A DNA stretch of 38,557 nt. Origin: a virus. The notes below the pieces were generated by a model. The model was not told the DNA's origin, searched no databases, and worked only from the letters and a program-made list of their open reading frames with translations. The position numbers and the translations under genes are program-made. Shown here in pieces: positions 2,010 through 38,557 of the stretch. The stretch lies in IMG/VR virus record IMGVR_UViG_3300043449_001802, positions 1 to 38,557 of that record. One strand, 5' to 3'. The stretch's first letter is position 1, and each line of letters starts with the position of its first letter.

Positions 2010-2107
2010 AAAAAATAATTGAACAAGTTCAGAATGAAGGTCTTGAAAGTTTGCTCGGCGAAAGAGTTTTACTTTTTTGCTTTAAAGTGAAAGGCAAGAA
2101 GAGGTGA
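2006..2107 (+). CDS. Possible 33-aa peptide upstream of the cytosine methyltransferase
   Basis: This short ORF starts at an ATG overlapping the previous stop and ends TGA overlapping the methyltransferase ATG (TGATG). Its middle reads LLGERVLLFC and its end is Lys/Arg-rich. It may be a coupling leader for the methyltransferase or the truncated stub of a longer small phage protein. The unbroken stop-start chain is the main support. Confidence 0.45.
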   Translation: MKKIIEQVQNEGLESLLGERVLLFCFKVKGKKR

Positions 2108-2937
2108 TGCGTGGCTTGGATCTTTTTTCAGGCATCGGAGGGATTTCAATTGGGCTCAAACCATGGGTGCGAACCGTCGCATACTGTGAAAGCGACAGAT
2201 ACGCTCAAGCCGTCTTGTTGTCACGAATGCGGCAAGGTGATCTGGACCGAGCTCCCATCTGGGACGACGTTCGAACTTTGCGAGGGCGTATGCTCCCGCC
2301 CATCGACATCATTTTTGGAGGTTTTCCCTGCCAAGACATCAGCGTTGCGGGACGTGGTGAGGGCCTGGCAGGAGAGCGTAGCGGACTTTTCTTCGAAATT
2401 GTCCGACTTACAAAAGAAATTCATCCGACGTTTGTGTTCCTCGAAAACGTGCCCGCAATTAGAACTCGCGGACTTCGAGAGGTCGCAAGAGCATTTACCG
2501 ATTTACGGTATGATTGTCGATGGACTTGTGTATCTGCCGCAGAAGTTGGAGCCCCACACCAAAGAAAAAGATGGTTCTTACTTGCCTACGCCAGCGGCGC
2601 AAGAAGCCGGGTACAACAAAGGCGGGGCGGCGGGGCGAGTTGGAAAGCTAAGGCCGTCACTCTCAACAATGGCGCGAAAGAATCTTTGGCCGACGCCGAA
2701 AGCGAGAGATTGGAAGGACTCTCCGAATCAGAAATGGAGAGAAAATGGACGCGACAAAAACCAACTCGCAATGAATGTATATTTGCAAAACAATGGTGGG
2801 CAGTTGAGCCCAACGTGGGTCGAGTGGCTTATGGGGTTCCCTTTAGAGTGGACCGTCTTAGAGGATTGGGCAACGCAGTGGTTCCAAGTCAAGCGAACAA
2901 GGCTTTTAAAAAATTATTAGGAATGGATGCAAAATGA
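2107..2937 (+). CDS. C5-cytosine DNA methyltransferase (Dcm-like)
   Basis: This enzyme should transfer a methyl group from S-adenosylmethionine to carbon 5 of cytosine in DNA. The 276-residue product has the ordered C5-MTase motifs: motif I DLFSGIGG (5-12) binding SAM, motif IV GGFPCQ with the catalytic Cys near 75, motif VI ENVP (113-116), motif VIII QRKR (152-155), and motif X RGLGNAVVP near the end. The target-recognition region is short, so the recognition site is probably small. ATG 2107 overlaps the preceding stop; GTG 2104 is an alternative. The gene carries a long second ORF in another frame. The TET-like and glycosyltransferase genes at 34.1-35.9 kb suggest that its 5-methylcytosine product is a substrate for further modification. 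Confidence 0.93.
   Translation: MRGLDLFSGIGGISIGLKPWVRTVAYCESDRYAQAVLLSRMRQGDLDRAPIWDDVRTLRGRMLPPIDIIFGGFPCQDISVAGRGEGLAGERSGLFFEIVRLTKEIHPTFVFLENVPAIRTRGLREVARAFTDLRYDCRWTCVSAAEVGAPHQRKRWFLLAYASGARSRVQQRRGGGASWKAKAVTLNNGAKESLADAESERLEGLSESEMERKWTRQKPTRNECIFAKQWWAVEPNVGRVAYGVPFRVDRLRGLGNAVVPSQANKAFKKLLGMDAK
2111..2920 (+). CDS. Overlapping 269-aa ORF embedded in the methyltransferase gene
   Basis: This ORF is open for 269 codons in another frame of the same strand, wholly inside the methyltransferase gene. GTG 2111 has GAGG exactly 6 bases upstream, a better spacing than the methyltransferase ATG has. The product is Trp-rich and protein-like, with LPTPAAQEAGY, a second WPTPKARDWKD and a C-terminal LSPTWVEWLMGFP. 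I recall such motifs from hypothetical phage proteins next to or overlapping Dcm-type genes. The C-terminal motif lies opposite a conserved methyltransferase segment, so part of the apparent conservation may be a reading-frame shadow. The repeated TP-A-R/Q motif lies opposite the variable, low-complexity part of the enzyme, which favours a real dual-coding gene. Function unknown. Confidence 0.5.
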   Translation: MAWIFFQASEGFQLGSNHGCEPSHTVKATDTLKPSCCHECGKVIWTELPSGTTFELCEGVCSRPSTSFLEVFPAKTSALRDVVRAWQESVADFSSKLSDLQKKFIRRLCSSKTCPQLELADFERSQEHLPIYGMIVDGLVYLPQKLEPHTKEKDGSYLPTPAAQEAGYNKGGAAGRVGKLRPSLSTMARKNLWPTPKARDWKDSPNQKWRENGRDKNQLAMNVYLQNNGGQLSPTWVEWLMGFPLEWTVLEDWATQWFQVKRTRLLKNY

Positions 2938-4858: not shown

Positions 4859-5824
4859 ATGAAACAGAAACCCGACCAGTTTCAAATGATACAGGAGCTC
4901 CAAGCCCTTGCGATTGATCTCGGTCGAACTCCCACGAGAGACGAGTATGTTGCAAAACTTGGACGCTATAACGAACTTATCTCTAATACTTTTGGGTCTT
5001 ATTCCACTTTTTGCGCTGCTGCCGGACTAGAGAATGTAAAACCTGGACCTAGAAAAATAAATCAAGAGGTTTTTCGTCGCGATATTTTTAGCTTTTTGCC
5101 AAACCAAAAGCCTGCCAAGCTCCCAGTTAAAGAGCCCTTTGAAACTACTTTGTTCATTGGCGACACGCATTTCCCATTCGTTGACCAAGATGTTTTAAAT
5201 CAAATTTACGCATTCTCTGAAAAGTATAAACCACAAATTATTGTCCAACTAGGCGACCTCTACGACGCCTATTCTCATGCAAAATTCCCGCGATCTCATA
5301 ACGTATTTACGCCACGGGATGAAACTCGCATGGCTCGCGAAATGGCCGAGGAGTTTTGGCGTAAACTTCAAGCCTCCTCGCCCTCTTCAAAATGCTTTCA
5401 AATCGTTGGCAATCATGATGTCCGTCCAATGAAAAAGATTCTTGAAGTTTATCCCGAAGCCGAGGACTGGATAACCGAGCGATTAAAAAGTCTGTTAACT
5501 TTTGAAGGCGTTCAAACTTTTTATGATCCGCGGGAGGAATTAAAACTTCCAGGGAACATTAAAGTTTTTCATGGCTACCGAACTCAAGTTGGTTCCCATC
5601 GTGATTTTACTCTGTCGAATGTAGTTTGCGGTCATTCCCATGTGGGCGGAGTAGTATTCCGCCAGGTCCGCGATGAAATTCTGTGGGAATTAAACGCAGG
5701 CTATTGTGGCGACCCGAATTCAAAAGGATTAAGCTATACGTCGCAAAAAACGATTGTATGGACTAAAGGCTGGGGCTGGGTCGATGAGTATGGGCCTCGG
5801 TTTATTCCAGCGGTGAAAGATTGA
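4859..5824 (+). CDS. Calcineurin-like metallophosphoesterase
   Basis: A 321-residue protein with the ordered dimetal phosphoesterase motifs GDTHF (101-105), GDLYD (132-136), GNHD (184-187) and GHSH (258-261). It should hydrolyse phosphomono- or diesters; phage relatives are annotated as nucleases or phosphatases, and the substrate cannot be read here. The first ~60 residues (RTPTRDEYVAKLGRYNELI, then FGSYSTFCAAAGL) resemble the small repeat found next to HNH nucleases, suggesting a nucleic-acid-binding module. No clear Shine-Dalgarno precedes ATG 4859, so a later start or a leaderless transcript is possible. Confidence 0.87.
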   Translation: MKQKPDQFQMIQELQALAIDLGRTPTRDEYVAKLGRYNELISNTFGSYSTFCAAAGLENVKPGPRKINQEVFRRDIFSFLPNQKPAKLPVKEPFETTLFIGDTHFPFVDQDVLNQIYAFSEKYKPQIIVQLGDLYDAYSHAKFPRSHNVFTPRDETRMAREMAEEFWRKLQASSPSSKCFQIVGNHDVRPMKKILEVYPEAEDWITERLKSLLTFEGVQTFYDPREELKLPGNIKVFHGYRTQVGSHRDFTLSNVVCGHSHVGGVVFRQVRDEILWELNAGYCGDPNSKGLSYTSQKTIVWTKGWGWVDEYGPRFIPAVKD

Positions 5825-33500: not shown

Positions 33501-34121
33501 ATGGAAGCATCAATTCATTGCAAATATGATCAATTATTAAATCCAAAAAAACTTAAGGATCATCCAAAAAATAGAAATAAGCACAGTGACAGTCAACTTG
33601 ATCGACTTTCTAAACTTTATCAAAGTCATGGCATTCGGCACCCAATTATTGTTTCAAAAAAAAGTGGTTTTATTGTTGCTGGTCATGCACGAAAAATGGC
33701 AGCGCTCAAAGCGGGAATTTCTGCAGTTCCTGTTGTTTATCAAGAATTTGAAACCGATGAACAAGAATATGCATTTATTCACAGTGATAATGCTATTGCC
33801 GCATGGGCTGAATTGGATCTTGCTGGAATAAATGCAGATCTCGGCGATCTCGGTCCGGATTTTGATATCGACTTGCTGGGCATTAAAAACTTTACGTTGG
33901 ATCCTGCGGATCTTCCCGTTTTCAATCATGAAAAGGGAAAGTCAAATCGCGAACGCTATGAGGAATACAATCCAATGACGGTGCGAAAACTAGAAGTAAT
34001 TTTAAGCGAAGAAAATTATGGATTAGTCATCGATGGTTTAGATAAAAAAATGGAACGCGACAATTTAAAAAGCTACACAGAGGCAGTCGTTGCTTTTTGC
34101 AAAGAAGAGCTTACAAGGTGA
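33501..34121 (+). CDS. Solo ParB/Srx-like domain protein
   Basis: Of 206 residues, starting at ATG 33501 behind AAGGA. The N-terminal ~120 residues have the ParB-like fold pattern: LNPKKLKDHPKNRNKHSD, HGIRHPIIVSKKSGFIVAG, then GHARKMAALKAGI and EYAFIHSDNAIAAWAELD, FDIDLLGI. This is the type usually fused to phage adenine/cytosine methylases, but no methylase domain follows; instead there is a charged ~80-residue tail. It is coupled to the TET/JBP-like gene (4-base overlap), so it is probably a DNA-binding or targeting partner for modification. Confidence 0.78.
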   Translation: MEASIHCKYDQLLNPKKLKDHPKNRNKHSDSQLDRLSKLYQSHGIRHPIIVSKKSGFIVAGHARKMAALKAGISAVPVVYQEFETDEQEYAFIHSDNAIAAWAELDLAGINADLGDLGPDFDIDLLGIKNFTLDPADLPVFNHEKGKSNRERYEEYNPMTVRKLEVILSEENYGLVIDGLDKKMERDNLKSYTEAVVAFCKEELTR

Positions 34122-34957
34122 AAAAAATTTACCTAAAAAAACGCACCGTTCAACGTACTGAATATATTGCCAAGGGAGCCGAGTTAAATCATGTTTCACA
34201 GTTAATTAGCGATCGAAATGTTGAGTTATATGATGAGGCAGATCCATCTAAACCTATCATCATTTTAAAAAATAAAAATGACTTTGGTTGGCTCTTCCAG
34301 GAATTGAAAAAAATTAAAAAATGGGACTCTGGTACTCGAAACAATGGCAACCGAAGCATTTCACGTGTTTATGGATATCAGCCCCGAATGCCTCCTCGTC
34401 GTCAGGACTATTGTTCGATGGCAAGATTTTACAAGGATTATCCTCAAATTTTTGATGATATTACCTCATGGATTCGATCAGCAGAAAAAGACTTCGAGGA
34501 AATTTCTCCTGAGCTTTATTTGCCACAAAAGGAACTTGTGCGAGGTTCAGTTTTAGAAGAATGGCGAATTGCAGGAACATCCTTCACGAGCGGAATTATT
34601 AATAAATCAAATCCGCTTGGATATCACACGGACACGGGCAACATAAAAAACGCTTGGTCGATGATGCTAGTTTTGCGCGCTGGCGTTGATGGTGGGCAGT
34701 TAGTAGTGCCAGAATTGGATGTTGCGCTAAGCTTGGATCATTGTTCACAGTTATTTTTTGATGGGCAGTCCCTCATCCATGGCGTGACGCCGATTAAAAA
34801 AACTTCTGCAGATGGCGAGCGCTTTAGTGTGGTTGCCTATAGCTTAAAGCAAATGTGCAAATGCCTTCATCCGGTTCAAGAAATTGAAAGAGCTCAGGTG
34901 CGAGCGGTTGCAGCTATGAAGCATCGTCGCGAGCTTCAGGAAAAGGCAAAAGAGTGA
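34118..34957 (+). CDS. TET/JBP-like Fe(II)/2-oxoglutarate dioxygenase
   Basis: Of 279 residues, with a GTG start overlapping the ParB-like stop. A double-stranded beta-helix core is readable: HTDTGN gives His170 and Asp172, FFDGQSLIHGVTPI gives His221, and ERFSVVAY gives Arg235 for the oxoglutarate carboxylate. The order GYHTDTGN, GGQLVVPELDVAL, LIHG is that of the TET/JBP group, which oxidises 5-methylpyrimidines in DNA using iron, oxygen and 2-oxoglutarate. Phage TET enzymes are known to make 5-hydroxymethylcytosine from 5-methylcytosine. The C5-methyltransferase at 2107 would supply the substrate and the next gene may decorate the product. A generic 2OG hydroxylase cannot be excluded. Confidence 0.8.
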   Translation: MKKIYLKKRTVQRTEYIAKGAELNHVSQLISDRNVELYDEADPSKPIIILKNKNDFGWLFQELKKIKKWDSGTRNNGNRSISRVYGYQPRMPPRRQDYCSMARFYKDYPQIFDDITSWIRSAEKDFEEISPELYLPQKELVRGSVLEEWRIAGTSFTSGIINKSNPLGYHTDTGNIKNAWSMMLVLRAGVDGGQLVVPELDVALSLDHCSQLFFDGQSLIHGVTPIKKTSADGERFSVVAYSLKQMCKCLHPVQEIERAQVRAVAAMKHRRELQEKAKE

Positions 34958-35913
34958 AAATTGCTTATCGGAGAATGTCTGGACCTATTGGATTATCTAA
35001 GTCTGAAACAGGGACAAGAGGACTTTGGCTTGAAAAGCGCGAGGCCTTCATCTCCGAGCTGTGGCGACGCGGGCATACCGTTGCCATTGTTAACAAGCTA
35101 ACTAAACCAACACAAAACGAGCTAATAACTCCTGCGCCCGATTTAGCTCGAGTTTTTGAAAGCGATTTACTTTTTGTTGAATTTGGTGGCGGTAATAAGA
35201 TTTTTTTTGAGGAAGACTTAAAAGCTACCGTTGAAATTGTGGAAAATTTTAAAGGACCAATAGTTTTTTTAAACGATGATCCCGATCTGCCGATGGTTTG
35301 GGATATGATTTCACAACAGTCTCAAAAAAAATTTGTTTGCTGGCATAATTCAATTCGCCCTGAGCTTTTTGGACGTGGTCTAAAAGTAAAGATTCCCGTC
35401 AAAGACTTTCCATTTTCCGCTTTGCTTCCCACTAGACCTCCGCGTAATGTTGATAGTTTTGACTTGGTTTATATTGGGCGTCCCGATGGGCGCGGGGCTG
35501 TAGTTCGCGAGCTTATCGCTGCTGGGATTGACTGGAAAATTTACGGCAGGCAAAAAGAATGGTGCGATTTTGGAGTGCGTGTAAGCGATCCTCCACCACA
35601 GGCCCAGCGTCCGGACTTTTATGCGGGTCAAATGGCCTCACTTGTTTTGGCAGATAAAAAGCATAAAAAAATGGGATGGCGAACGGGCAGGGCTTACCAC
35701 GCGCTAGCAGCTGGGTGTCCGGCAATTGTTGAAAATGATCATGATGCTCTTCGCGAGTTTTTACGTTTTAACGGTGCGCCTAGCCTCAAGCCAATTATTG
35801 AGGCGCTTAAAAATCCATCTTTTCGTCAAGAAATAACGCTTCAACAACAAGGTCTTATGATTGAGCGCGATCGTCCAATTGTCGAAGAGCGATTCGCAGA
35901 GGTTGGACTTTAA
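34954..35913 (+). CDS. GT-B-like glycosyltransferase
   Basis: Of 319 residues. The GTG overlaps the dioxygenase stop. The C-terminal third has FDLVYIGRPDGRGAVVREL, then WRTGRAYHALAAGCPAIVEN and a D-H-D segment, as in the sugar-nucleotide-binding half of GT-B enzymes. The N-terminal half has alternating strands and helices (AFISELWRRGHTVAIVNKL). Given the operon, its likely acceptor is hydroxymethylcytosine in DNA; a surface-glycan acceptor is an alternative. The sugar donor cannot be told. Confidence 0.75.
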   Translation: MKIAYRRMSGPIGLSKSETGTRGLWLEKREAFISELWRRGHTVAIVNKLTKPTQNELITPAPDLARVFESDLLFVEFGGGNKIFFEEDLKATVEIVENFKGPIVFLNDDPDLPMVWDMISQQSQKKFVCWHNSIRPELFGRGLKVKIPVKDFPFSALLPTRPPRNVDSFDLVYIGRPDGRGAVVRELIAAGIDWKIYGRQKEWCDFGVRVSDPPPQAQRPDFYAGQMASLVLADKKHKKMGWRTGRAYHALAAGCPAIVENDHDALREFLRFNGAPSLKPIIEALKNPSFRQEITLQQQGLMIERDRPIVEERFAEVGL

Positions 35914-36368
35914 TGAAAATAGGATATGATTGTGATGGAGTTTTGGCCGAAGGTCCACCCAAAAGCCCAGTGCGCTGGGGCAAAATGAACGGCGAACAGC
36001 GTCAACAAAGGCGTCTTGATTTGCTTCAATTTTACGCCAATGCCCGACCAATTTTGAAAAACCTTCCTGGCCCGATTGCCGTCGTTATTACTGCTAGAAA
36101 AGCCACGCCTGAAATTGAAAGAATTACCCGCCAATGGCTTGAGACCCATCACGGCGAGTTGTTTTGCGGGCAACTGGAGCTTTTTAATGGTACGCGCAGC
36201 ATTGAAAACGTAGTTGCATTTAAGGCGCAAAAGATTCTTGAGCATGGCTGCACGGACTTCATTGAGGACAATTTGCAGGTTGTACGAGGCCTCAGAGCGC
36301 TGTTGCCACGAGTTAAAATATGGCGTCTGCAGGTTCGACGTGGCGGGTTAATTGATCTAAGTCTTTAA
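35913..36368 (+). CDS. HAD-superfamily phosphatase/nucleotidase-like protein
   Basis: Of 151 residues, directly overlapping the glycosyltransferase stop. It has the HAD motifs: DCDG (Asp6 nucleophile, Asp8), VVITARK (Thr60), Lys104 and FIEDN (Glu118/Asp119). It is short, with almost no cap, and probably dephosphorylates a small substrate such as a nucleotide or sugar phosphate. As last gene of the modification operon it may supply or clear a sugar-nucleotide or modified-nucleotide intermediate; this is inference. Confidence 0.75.
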   Translation: MKIGYDCDGVLAEGPPKSPVRWGKMNGEQRQQRRLDLLQFYANARPILKNLPGPIAVVITARKATPEIERITRQWLETHHGELFCGQLELFNGTRSIENVVAFKAQKILEHGCTDFIEDNLQVVRGLRALLPRVKIWRLQVRRGGLIDLSL

Positions 36369-37921: not shown

Positions 37922-38470
37922 ATGTCTGAAGGAATCCGGTCTCTGAGCGACATTATTAACGAAGCGCAACTCATTATGGACCAGCTTTTTGAATCGGGCG
38001 GCGAAATCACGCCCGAAACCGAGGCTCTGTTGGCTGGTTCTAAATTAGAGCTCAAACAAAAGATCGATGCGTATGGTTTTATTATCGATCAATTTAAAGC
38101 TCGAAAAGACTACGCCATTGGAAAAACAAAAGAATGGGGCAAGGTCGCCGATCAATGCGAGCGAGCACTTGAATACCTTGAATCAAAAGTTAAAACAGCC
38201 CTGACGACTCTTGAGCTATCTGAAATTCATGGCCACGAATACACTTTCAAATTGCGAGCGAATCCACCTTCGGTCGTGGTTGAAAACGAAGCGGCCGTCC
38301 CTGGCGATTACATTGTTACTGAAACAAAAACCACGACTCGAGTCGATAAAAAGAAAATTTTGGAAGTTTTGAAAACTGGCGCGAGCATCCCAGGCGTCCA
38401 TCTTGAACGTGGAATTAAATTGATTTCAAAAGTATCAGAGCGAAAATTGATCGGCGGTCAAAATGAATAA
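37922..38470 (+). CDS. Siphovirus Gp157-like protein
   Basis: Of 182 residues, with AAGGAG upstream. It has the Gp157 pattern: SLSDIINEAQLIMDQLFES, ALLAGSKLELKQKIDAYGFI, a coiled region with ALEYLESKVKTAL, and a C-terminal KLRANPPSVVVEN with PGDYIV. Gp157 proteins sit with phage recombinases and may help load or regulate them. It is the first gene after the leader and is coupled to bet across the contig join. Confidence 0.88.
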   Translation: MSEGIRSLSDIINEAQLIMDQLFESGGEITPETEALLAGSKLELKQKIDAYGFIIDQFKARKDYAIGKTKEWGKVADQCERALEYLESKVKTALTTLELSEIHGHEYTFKLRANPPSVVVENEAAVPGDYIVTETKTTTRVDKKKILEVLKTGASIPGVHLERGIKLISKVSERKLIGGQNE

Positions 38471-38557
38471 GGAAATCACGGTTTCAAATCAAATAAGTGA
38501 AGATGAGGTCCAGCTTTTAAAAGATACAGTCTGTCGAGGGGCCACAAATGATGAATT
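38431..38557. repeat. 127-bp terminal direct repeat, copy 2 (circular-contig join)
   Basis: Identical to 1-127. Removing one copy gives a circle of 38,430 bp in which the Gp157-like and bet genes are continuous. Confidence 0.95.
38463..38557 (+). CDS. bet: 5' end of bet (duplicate of the gene at 33)
   Basis: The first 31 codons of bet, cut by the end of the window. It is the same gene as at 33-995 and should not be counted as a second copy. Confidence 0.93.
   Translation, partial: MNKEITVSNQISEDEVQLLKDTVCRGATNDE

Follow-up and report, generated by a model that had tools for sequence, protein, structure and literature searches.

The conversion of thymine in DNA to 5-hydroxymethyluracil (5hmU) and then to glycosyl-5hmU is the chemistry of base J, made by JBP1/JBP2 and the glycosyltransferase JGT, and to our knowledge a route of this type is known so far only from kinetoplastids and their relatives. 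Thymidine hypermodification by way of 5hmU, with ADDT (amino acid:DNA transferase) and 5hmU kinases, was reportedly described by Lee et al. in 2018 and 2022. Phages M6, ViI and W-14 exemplify this ADDT and 5hmU-kinase pathway (PMC6449724), a ParB-TET-aGPT-kinase gene set in Rhodococcus phage Tonitrus has been independently proposed to serve thymidine hypermodification (PMC11955845), and phage TETs with linked C5-cytosine methyltransferases (C5-MTs) are assigned to cytosine hypermodification by Burke et al. (2021, PNAS), as cited in PMC12730594. Glucosylated 5hmU was unreported in phages as of 2019 (PMC6449724), and a literature search, thin on subscription journals, turned up no later report. 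ParB domains beside DNA-modifying enzymes are likewise known, and unexplained (PMC12783734). Here we analyse IMG/VR virus record IMGVR_UViG_3300043449_001802 (the window, that is, the whole stretch of 38,557 nucleotides), in which a four-gene operon at 33501-36368 encodes a ParB-like protein, a TET/JBP-type Fe(II)/2-oxoglutarate (2OG) dioxygenase, a probable glycosyltransferase and a HAD-like hydrolase. Comparison with related loci makes it fairly probable that this operon is a post-replicative thymine hypermodification module leading from T through 5hmU to glycosyl-5hmU, likened to base J by its proposed chemistry alone and belonging to a phage where the base J system is eukaryotic; the cytosine pathway proposed in the initial annotation, from C through 5-methylcytosine (5mC) and 5-hydroxymethylcytosine (5hmC) to sugar-5hmC, probably names the wrong base.

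The genes of the operon (Table 1) are tightly packed: the ParB-like and TET genes overlap by 4 bp, as do the TET and 319-aa genes, and the 319-aa and HAD genes share one base, which suggests translational coupling. The product of the second gene is a true TET/JBP dioxygenase. Its match to PF12851 (Tet_JBP; E 1.8e-14) lies well above the curated cut-off of 34.9 bits; H170, D172, H221 and R235, which form the HxD...H iron triad and the 2OG-binding arginine and had been singled out in the initial annotation, are invariant in an alignment of 12 diverse phage homologues; and an AlphaFold model from 26 homologues (predicted local distance difference test, pLDDT, 95.5) finds its nearest structural neighbours in TET2 (Z 20.7), NgTET1 (20.1), CMD1 (18.9) and CcTet (17.0), with ALKBH3 (15.3) and FTO (about 15) as the next families below. 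A protein or small-molecule hydroxylase, which the annotation had named, as best match by hidden Markov model, as an outcome fatal to its pathway, is ruled out by this structural ranking, whose top entries are DNA methylpyrimidine oxygenases, and the annotation's further view that the enzyme acts on finished DNA appears to be right. Separately, the name 'queuine tRNA-ribosyltransferase', under which many public phage genomes list their TET/JBP homologues and which PHROG 6059 also bears, was considered and rejected, fold and motifs being those of TET/JBP; it looks like a propagated misannotation.

Table 1. Genes of the proposed modification module and the separate C5-cytosine methyltransferase gene of the window.
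Feature	Position	Strand	Support
ParB-like protein, 206 aa, gene 1 of module	33501..34121	+	PF02195, 29.9 bits
TET/JBP-type Fe(II)/2OG dioxygenase, 279 aa, GTG start, gene 2	34118..34957	+	PF12851, 53.7 bits
Probable GT-B-fold glycosyltransferase, 319 aa, GTG start, orphan sequence, gene 3	34954..35913	+	PF13524, below cut-off
HAD-like hydrolase, 151 aa, last gene of module	35913..36368	+	motifs
C5-cytosine methyltransferase	2104..2937	+	PF00145, 137.5 bits; dcm TIGR00675, 107.7 bits

In the mechanism that we propose, the ParB-like protein would bind or load on phage DNA and deliver the TET/JBP enzyme, which, with Fe(II), O2 and 2OG, would convert thymine in duplex DNA to 5hmU by hydroxylation at the 5-methyl group; the chemistry of this step is taken from the enzyme's family, and the base from the partner genes found in its clade. 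The GT-B-like 319-aa enzyme would then place a sugar on the hydroxymethyl group, giving a base-J-like glycosyl-5hmU, and the HAD enzyme would assist, perhaps as a hydrolase of nucleotide or sugar phosphates. Such DNA would probably be shielded from restriction and other defences that target DNA, a protective effect that is established for other phage hypermodifications. As for the first component, the top PHROG matches of the ParB-like protein are ParB/DNA-methyltransferase fusions; the ParB-like partner listed by the initial annotation is borne out by the Pfam match and by the overlap of its gene with the TET start, and the protein is probably a DNA-binding or loading partner of the oxygenase.

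Thymine is favoured over cytosine because, in the clade to which the window's TET belongs, the usual companions of the oxygenase are ParB and thymidine-hypermodification enzymes rather than C5-MTs. This clade was sampled through 82 relatives (80 viral contigs and 2 bacterial contigs, many of the records being fragments) together with cultured phages, and counts by distinct locus are out of 69. The viral contigs were recovered with an alignment of clade members as query; a search of viral contigs with the single window TET protein returned nothing, and an alignment mixing the two TET classes set out below gave no usable pattern. The same procedure, applied to 71 relatives of the TET of Methylophilales phage Melnitz, served as a positive control. 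A TET fed with phage-made 5mC would need its methyltransferase, so a C5-MT should persist among relatives of such an enzyme. Among window-type loci, a PF00145 C5-MT was found in just 2 of the 50 whole records scanned, six complete actinophage genomes had none, and a ParB gene adjoins TET in 67 of the 69 distinct loci. Melnitz-type loci differ on each count: a C5-MT lies directly upstream of TET, ending at most 300 bp before its start, in 63 of 70, the five loci devoid of any methyltransferase are all cut at a contig edge, and ParB is rare (2/70).

These counts bear on the chief alternative, namely that the C5-MT at 2104 makes 5mC at the sites it recognises, which TET oxidises to 5hmC and the glycosyltransferase decorates with a sugar. 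Such a route would draw on the presence of a C5-MT, a TET and a probable glycosyltransferase in one complete genome, as the initial annotation did, and its 5mC may even be supplied by the host; the C5-MT is nonetheless absent from 48 of the 50 relatives' records and from all six complete actinophages, and in the window it lies about 5.6 kb downstream of the TET module around the circle, in the recombination/early module. The clade loci that do possess a C5-MT are L074 and L077, which look like one phage, and L085, all with a GT-B-type partner where the window has a GT-B-like protein, and such relatives lend the route some support; even there the gene is unlinked to TET, standing 5-6.5 kb away in L077 and L085 with opposite-strand open reading frames (ORFs) between, and in L085 on the other strand. 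The possibility that a GT-B partner implies a C5-MT was checked on an extended sample of 50 GT-B records and not upheld, since just five of them contain the methyltransferase, which makes the link weak. With thymidine enzymes as the partners of the clade, and with typical C5-MT-linked TETs falling in another clade with another pocket residue (see below), we regard the 5mC route as unlikely, although it is the strongest competitor of the thymine assignment.

The genes found downstream of TET give the thymine assignment its second line of evidence. Across the 69 distinct window-type loci, ADDT (PF18724) follows TET in 22, a GT-A-type glycosyltransferase in 24 (some exceeding the cut-off of TAGT, PF20691) and a GT-B-type one in 7, so that the slot of the window's 319-aa gene is occupied by a glycosyltransferase in 31 of 69 relatives, while ADDT and a glycosyltransferase occur together in none (Fisher 4e-8). 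ADDT is present in 16 of 50 window-type records as against 0 of 50 control records, and the P-loop kinase PF18751 in 24 of 49 window-type records. The window itself has no match to ADDT, to the P-loop kinase or to HMUDK (5-hmdU DNA kinase, helical domain; PF18723); with 31 of 69 relatives bearing a glycosyltransferase in place of ADDT, it is best placed in a sugar-variant branch of the ParB-TET modules. Mapping the partners onto the TET tree forces at least 12-13 changes apiece for GT-A and ADDT over well-supported branches; in one of the well-supported sister pairs, L083 carries GT-B and L095 ADDT. Being mutually exclusive yet repeatedly swapped, glycosyltransferase and ADDT probably tailor the same TET product, and the simplest reading is that one product, 5hmU, would be passed to alternative tailoring enzymes.

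An independent search with the relatives' GT-B family leads to a similar partnership. It returned 85 loci, of which 61 have TET, 22 have HMUDK and no TET, none has both, and two have neither. A thymidylate-synthase-family gene, likely a hydroxymethylase working at the nucleotide level, turns up in the records of 22 TET-less GT-B loci and in no TET-bearing record of this search, nor in the window. Because HMUDK and TET alternate and are never found together, the GT-B family appears to partner either 5hmU-pathway enzymes or TET. ParB accompanies 53 of the 61 GT-B loci with TET and none of the 24 without, a pattern that ties it to TET rather than to the glycosyltransferase and suggests a role in support of the oxygenase. 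Among the TET-less viral contigs (L195-L241), the GT-B gene sits between HMUDK and the thymidylate-synthase-family gene, with a radical SAM/SPASM gene also between them in L195, and these loci may represent a sugar-bearing 5hmU pathway of their own. Strict coupling to ParB and DNA-tailoring enzymes, together with the frequent position of the relatives' TET just upstream of terminase genes, also tells against a target other than phage DNA, be it host DNA, RNA, or host methylation that the oxygenase would erase to counter a defence. Other methylated nucleic acids can serve as substrates of TET/JBP enzymes, but we consider such a role here very improbable.

Residues of the substrate pocket fit the thymine assignment and do not settle it. 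TET2, NgTET1 and CMD1 recognise N4 of 5mC with an Asn or Asp, and TET2 and NgTET1 recognise N3 with a His (PMC7854593). At the first of these positions, three residues after the Asp of the HxD motif, window-type enzymes have Asn (N175 in the window) and control enzymes Asp, the Asp-pocket (D-class) TETs forming one clade with support 100/99. At the second, the window enzyme has Leu243, the commonest residue of its clade there (71/90). A thymine substrate is compatible with the missing N3 contact but is not proven by it, as TET2 also has the Asn (N1387; PMC7854593); N175, which the 5mC-acting TET2 shares and which is to that extent compatible with the 5mC route, cannot alone decide the base. 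We put at about even chances the joint proposition that a ParB-guided TET/JBP enzyme hydroxylates T and an unrelated, orphan glycosyltransferase glycosylates the resulting 5hmU, and that the substrate of a phage TET can be told from its sequence, there being two classes, one C5-MT-linked with an Asp pocket and acting on 5mC, the other ParB-linked with an Asn pocket and acting on T. A separate observation concerns the position of TET2 His1904, where Lys instead of Leu is over-represented among the few window-type loci that have a C5-MT (L085, L189/L190 and L223); these Lys-bearing TETs are a possible third, 5mC-reading subgroup.

Several further observations weigh against the thymine assignment or the sugar step attached to it. 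The window does encode a C5-MT. When records of 25 kb or more are counted by hand, a C5-MT is present in 3 of 14 GT-B/TET records and in 0 of 29 records with other partners, an enrichment (p of about 0.03) that is post hoc and weak. The control clade is narrow, being marine myovirus-like, and three other D-class TETs, of phages Cr30, DLP6 and P12024L, come without PF00145. To these are added the Asn that TET2 shares, the long branch of the window TET on the tree (1.49), a glycosyltransferase call that falls below the Pfam cut-off, and the want of detectable kinship between this glycosyltransferase and the HMUDK-tied GT-B family.

The glycosyltransferase call deserves a closer look, as the 319-aa protein is an orphan in sequence. 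It matches PF13524 over residues 190-294 (E 2.9e-4; 21.2 bits against a cut-off of 25), a C-terminal segment that covers the nucleotide-sugar-binding half, and has no match in NCBIfam or PHROG, no homologue by tblastn in phage and plasmid collections, in viral contigs or among the fetched relative loci, and a 0.1% probability in an hhalign comparison with the relatives' GT-B partner family; TAGT (PF20691) has no match in the window record, and a single-sequence model of the protein (pLDDT 34.8) gives no confident fold. The coupled GT-B-like glycosyltransferase of the initial annotation is accordingly upheld in its coupling, by the 4-bp overlap with TET, and left weak in its family call, and we regard the protein as a probable GT-B-like glycosyltransferase. 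The HAD hydrolase fared similarly: the motifs DCDGVLA, ITAR and FIEDN can be read in its sequence, there is no Pfam or NCBIfam match, and the gene gave a single match of 23 residues. HAD genes are not usual neighbours in the TET clade, this one being unique to the window among the loci compared, and its product may be a phosphatase involved in the supply of sugars or nucleotides. An orphan protein with a sub-threshold match and an unusual HAD neighbour leave some room for the alternative that thymine is oxidised while these two proteins make or attach a group other than a simple glycoside; given that glycosyltransferases fill the same slot in so many relatives, and that the PF13524 match falls on the nucleotide-sugar-binding half, we think this improbable, and keep to glycosyl-5hmU as the expected product.

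Set beside described systems, the operon resembles the ParB-TET modules of actinophages (Tonitrus; Gordonia phage CloverMinnie, genes 1-5; Mycobacterium phage Nigel, genes 1-3), which have ParB directly before a TET of the same clade, the same catalytic and pocket residues and, in the Nigel and CloverMinnie genomes, no C5-MT; those modules continue with ADDT (aGPT-PPlase2) and/or a P-loop kinase, whereas the window has an orphan glycosyltransferase and a HAD protein. ParB-TET-glycosyltransferase modules (genes 64-69 of Arthrobacter phage Klevey; IMG/VR loci L017, L025, L027 and L029) share with it a single run of genes for ParB, TET and a sugar transferase, but the window's glycosyltransferase is not detectably homologous to the GT-A (TAGT-like) or GT-B families of these loci, and they have no counterpart of its HAD gene. 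With the C5-MT/TET/glycosyltransferase systems of the Burke type, among which the Melnitz-type loci are counted here, it has in common the TET family and, as proposed here, post-replicative oxidation followed by glycosylation. In Klevey (L004:4666-8190) the run comprises ParB, TET, a TAGT-type glycosyltransferase and a PIG-L N-acetylglucosamine (GlcNAc) deacetylase, from which a glucosamine-bearing 5hmU would be predicted. The 'distinct version' of a pathway that the initial annotation suspected therefore holds for the sugar branch, a ParB-TET module with an orphan glycosyltransferase and a HAD partner being new here, and not for ParB-TET thymidine modules themselves, which had been proposed earlier for Tonitrus (PMC11955845). 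If the assignment is correct, phages use a base-J-like route on DNA, there would be new enzymes to write 5hmU into DNA, and a role would be suggested for the ParB-like proteins repeatedly encoded next to DNA-modifying enzymes of phages; the most useful outcome would be a rule, ParB/Asn versus C5-MT/Asp, telling thymine-acting from 5mC-acting phage TETs.

The window's own C5-MT, correctly recognised in the initial annotation, is probably a separate orphan methyltransferase unrelated to the module; its lineage is common in phages, with 1,302 phage records. A second long ORF in another frame (2111-2920, + strand, 269 aa; phrog_1008, 8e-19) covers almost the whole of its gene. Microcystis phage Mel-JY01 has homologues of the two frames (42% and 27% identity), fully overlapping there too, as does mycobacteriophage Wile, where they overlap partly; the two frames form a candidate conserved overlapping gene pair. 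The ends of the window share an exact 127-bp direct repeat (1-127 = 38431-38557), which marks the record as a complete genome, circular or terminally redundant, with a length of about 38,430 bp, and a tail sheath (phrog_205) and a baseplate wedge (phrog_6) agree with the annotation's description of a 38-kb myophage. RecT and Gp157 are encoded as well, and at 4859-5824 lies a fusion of an HNH-repeat with a calcineurin-like phosphoesterase.

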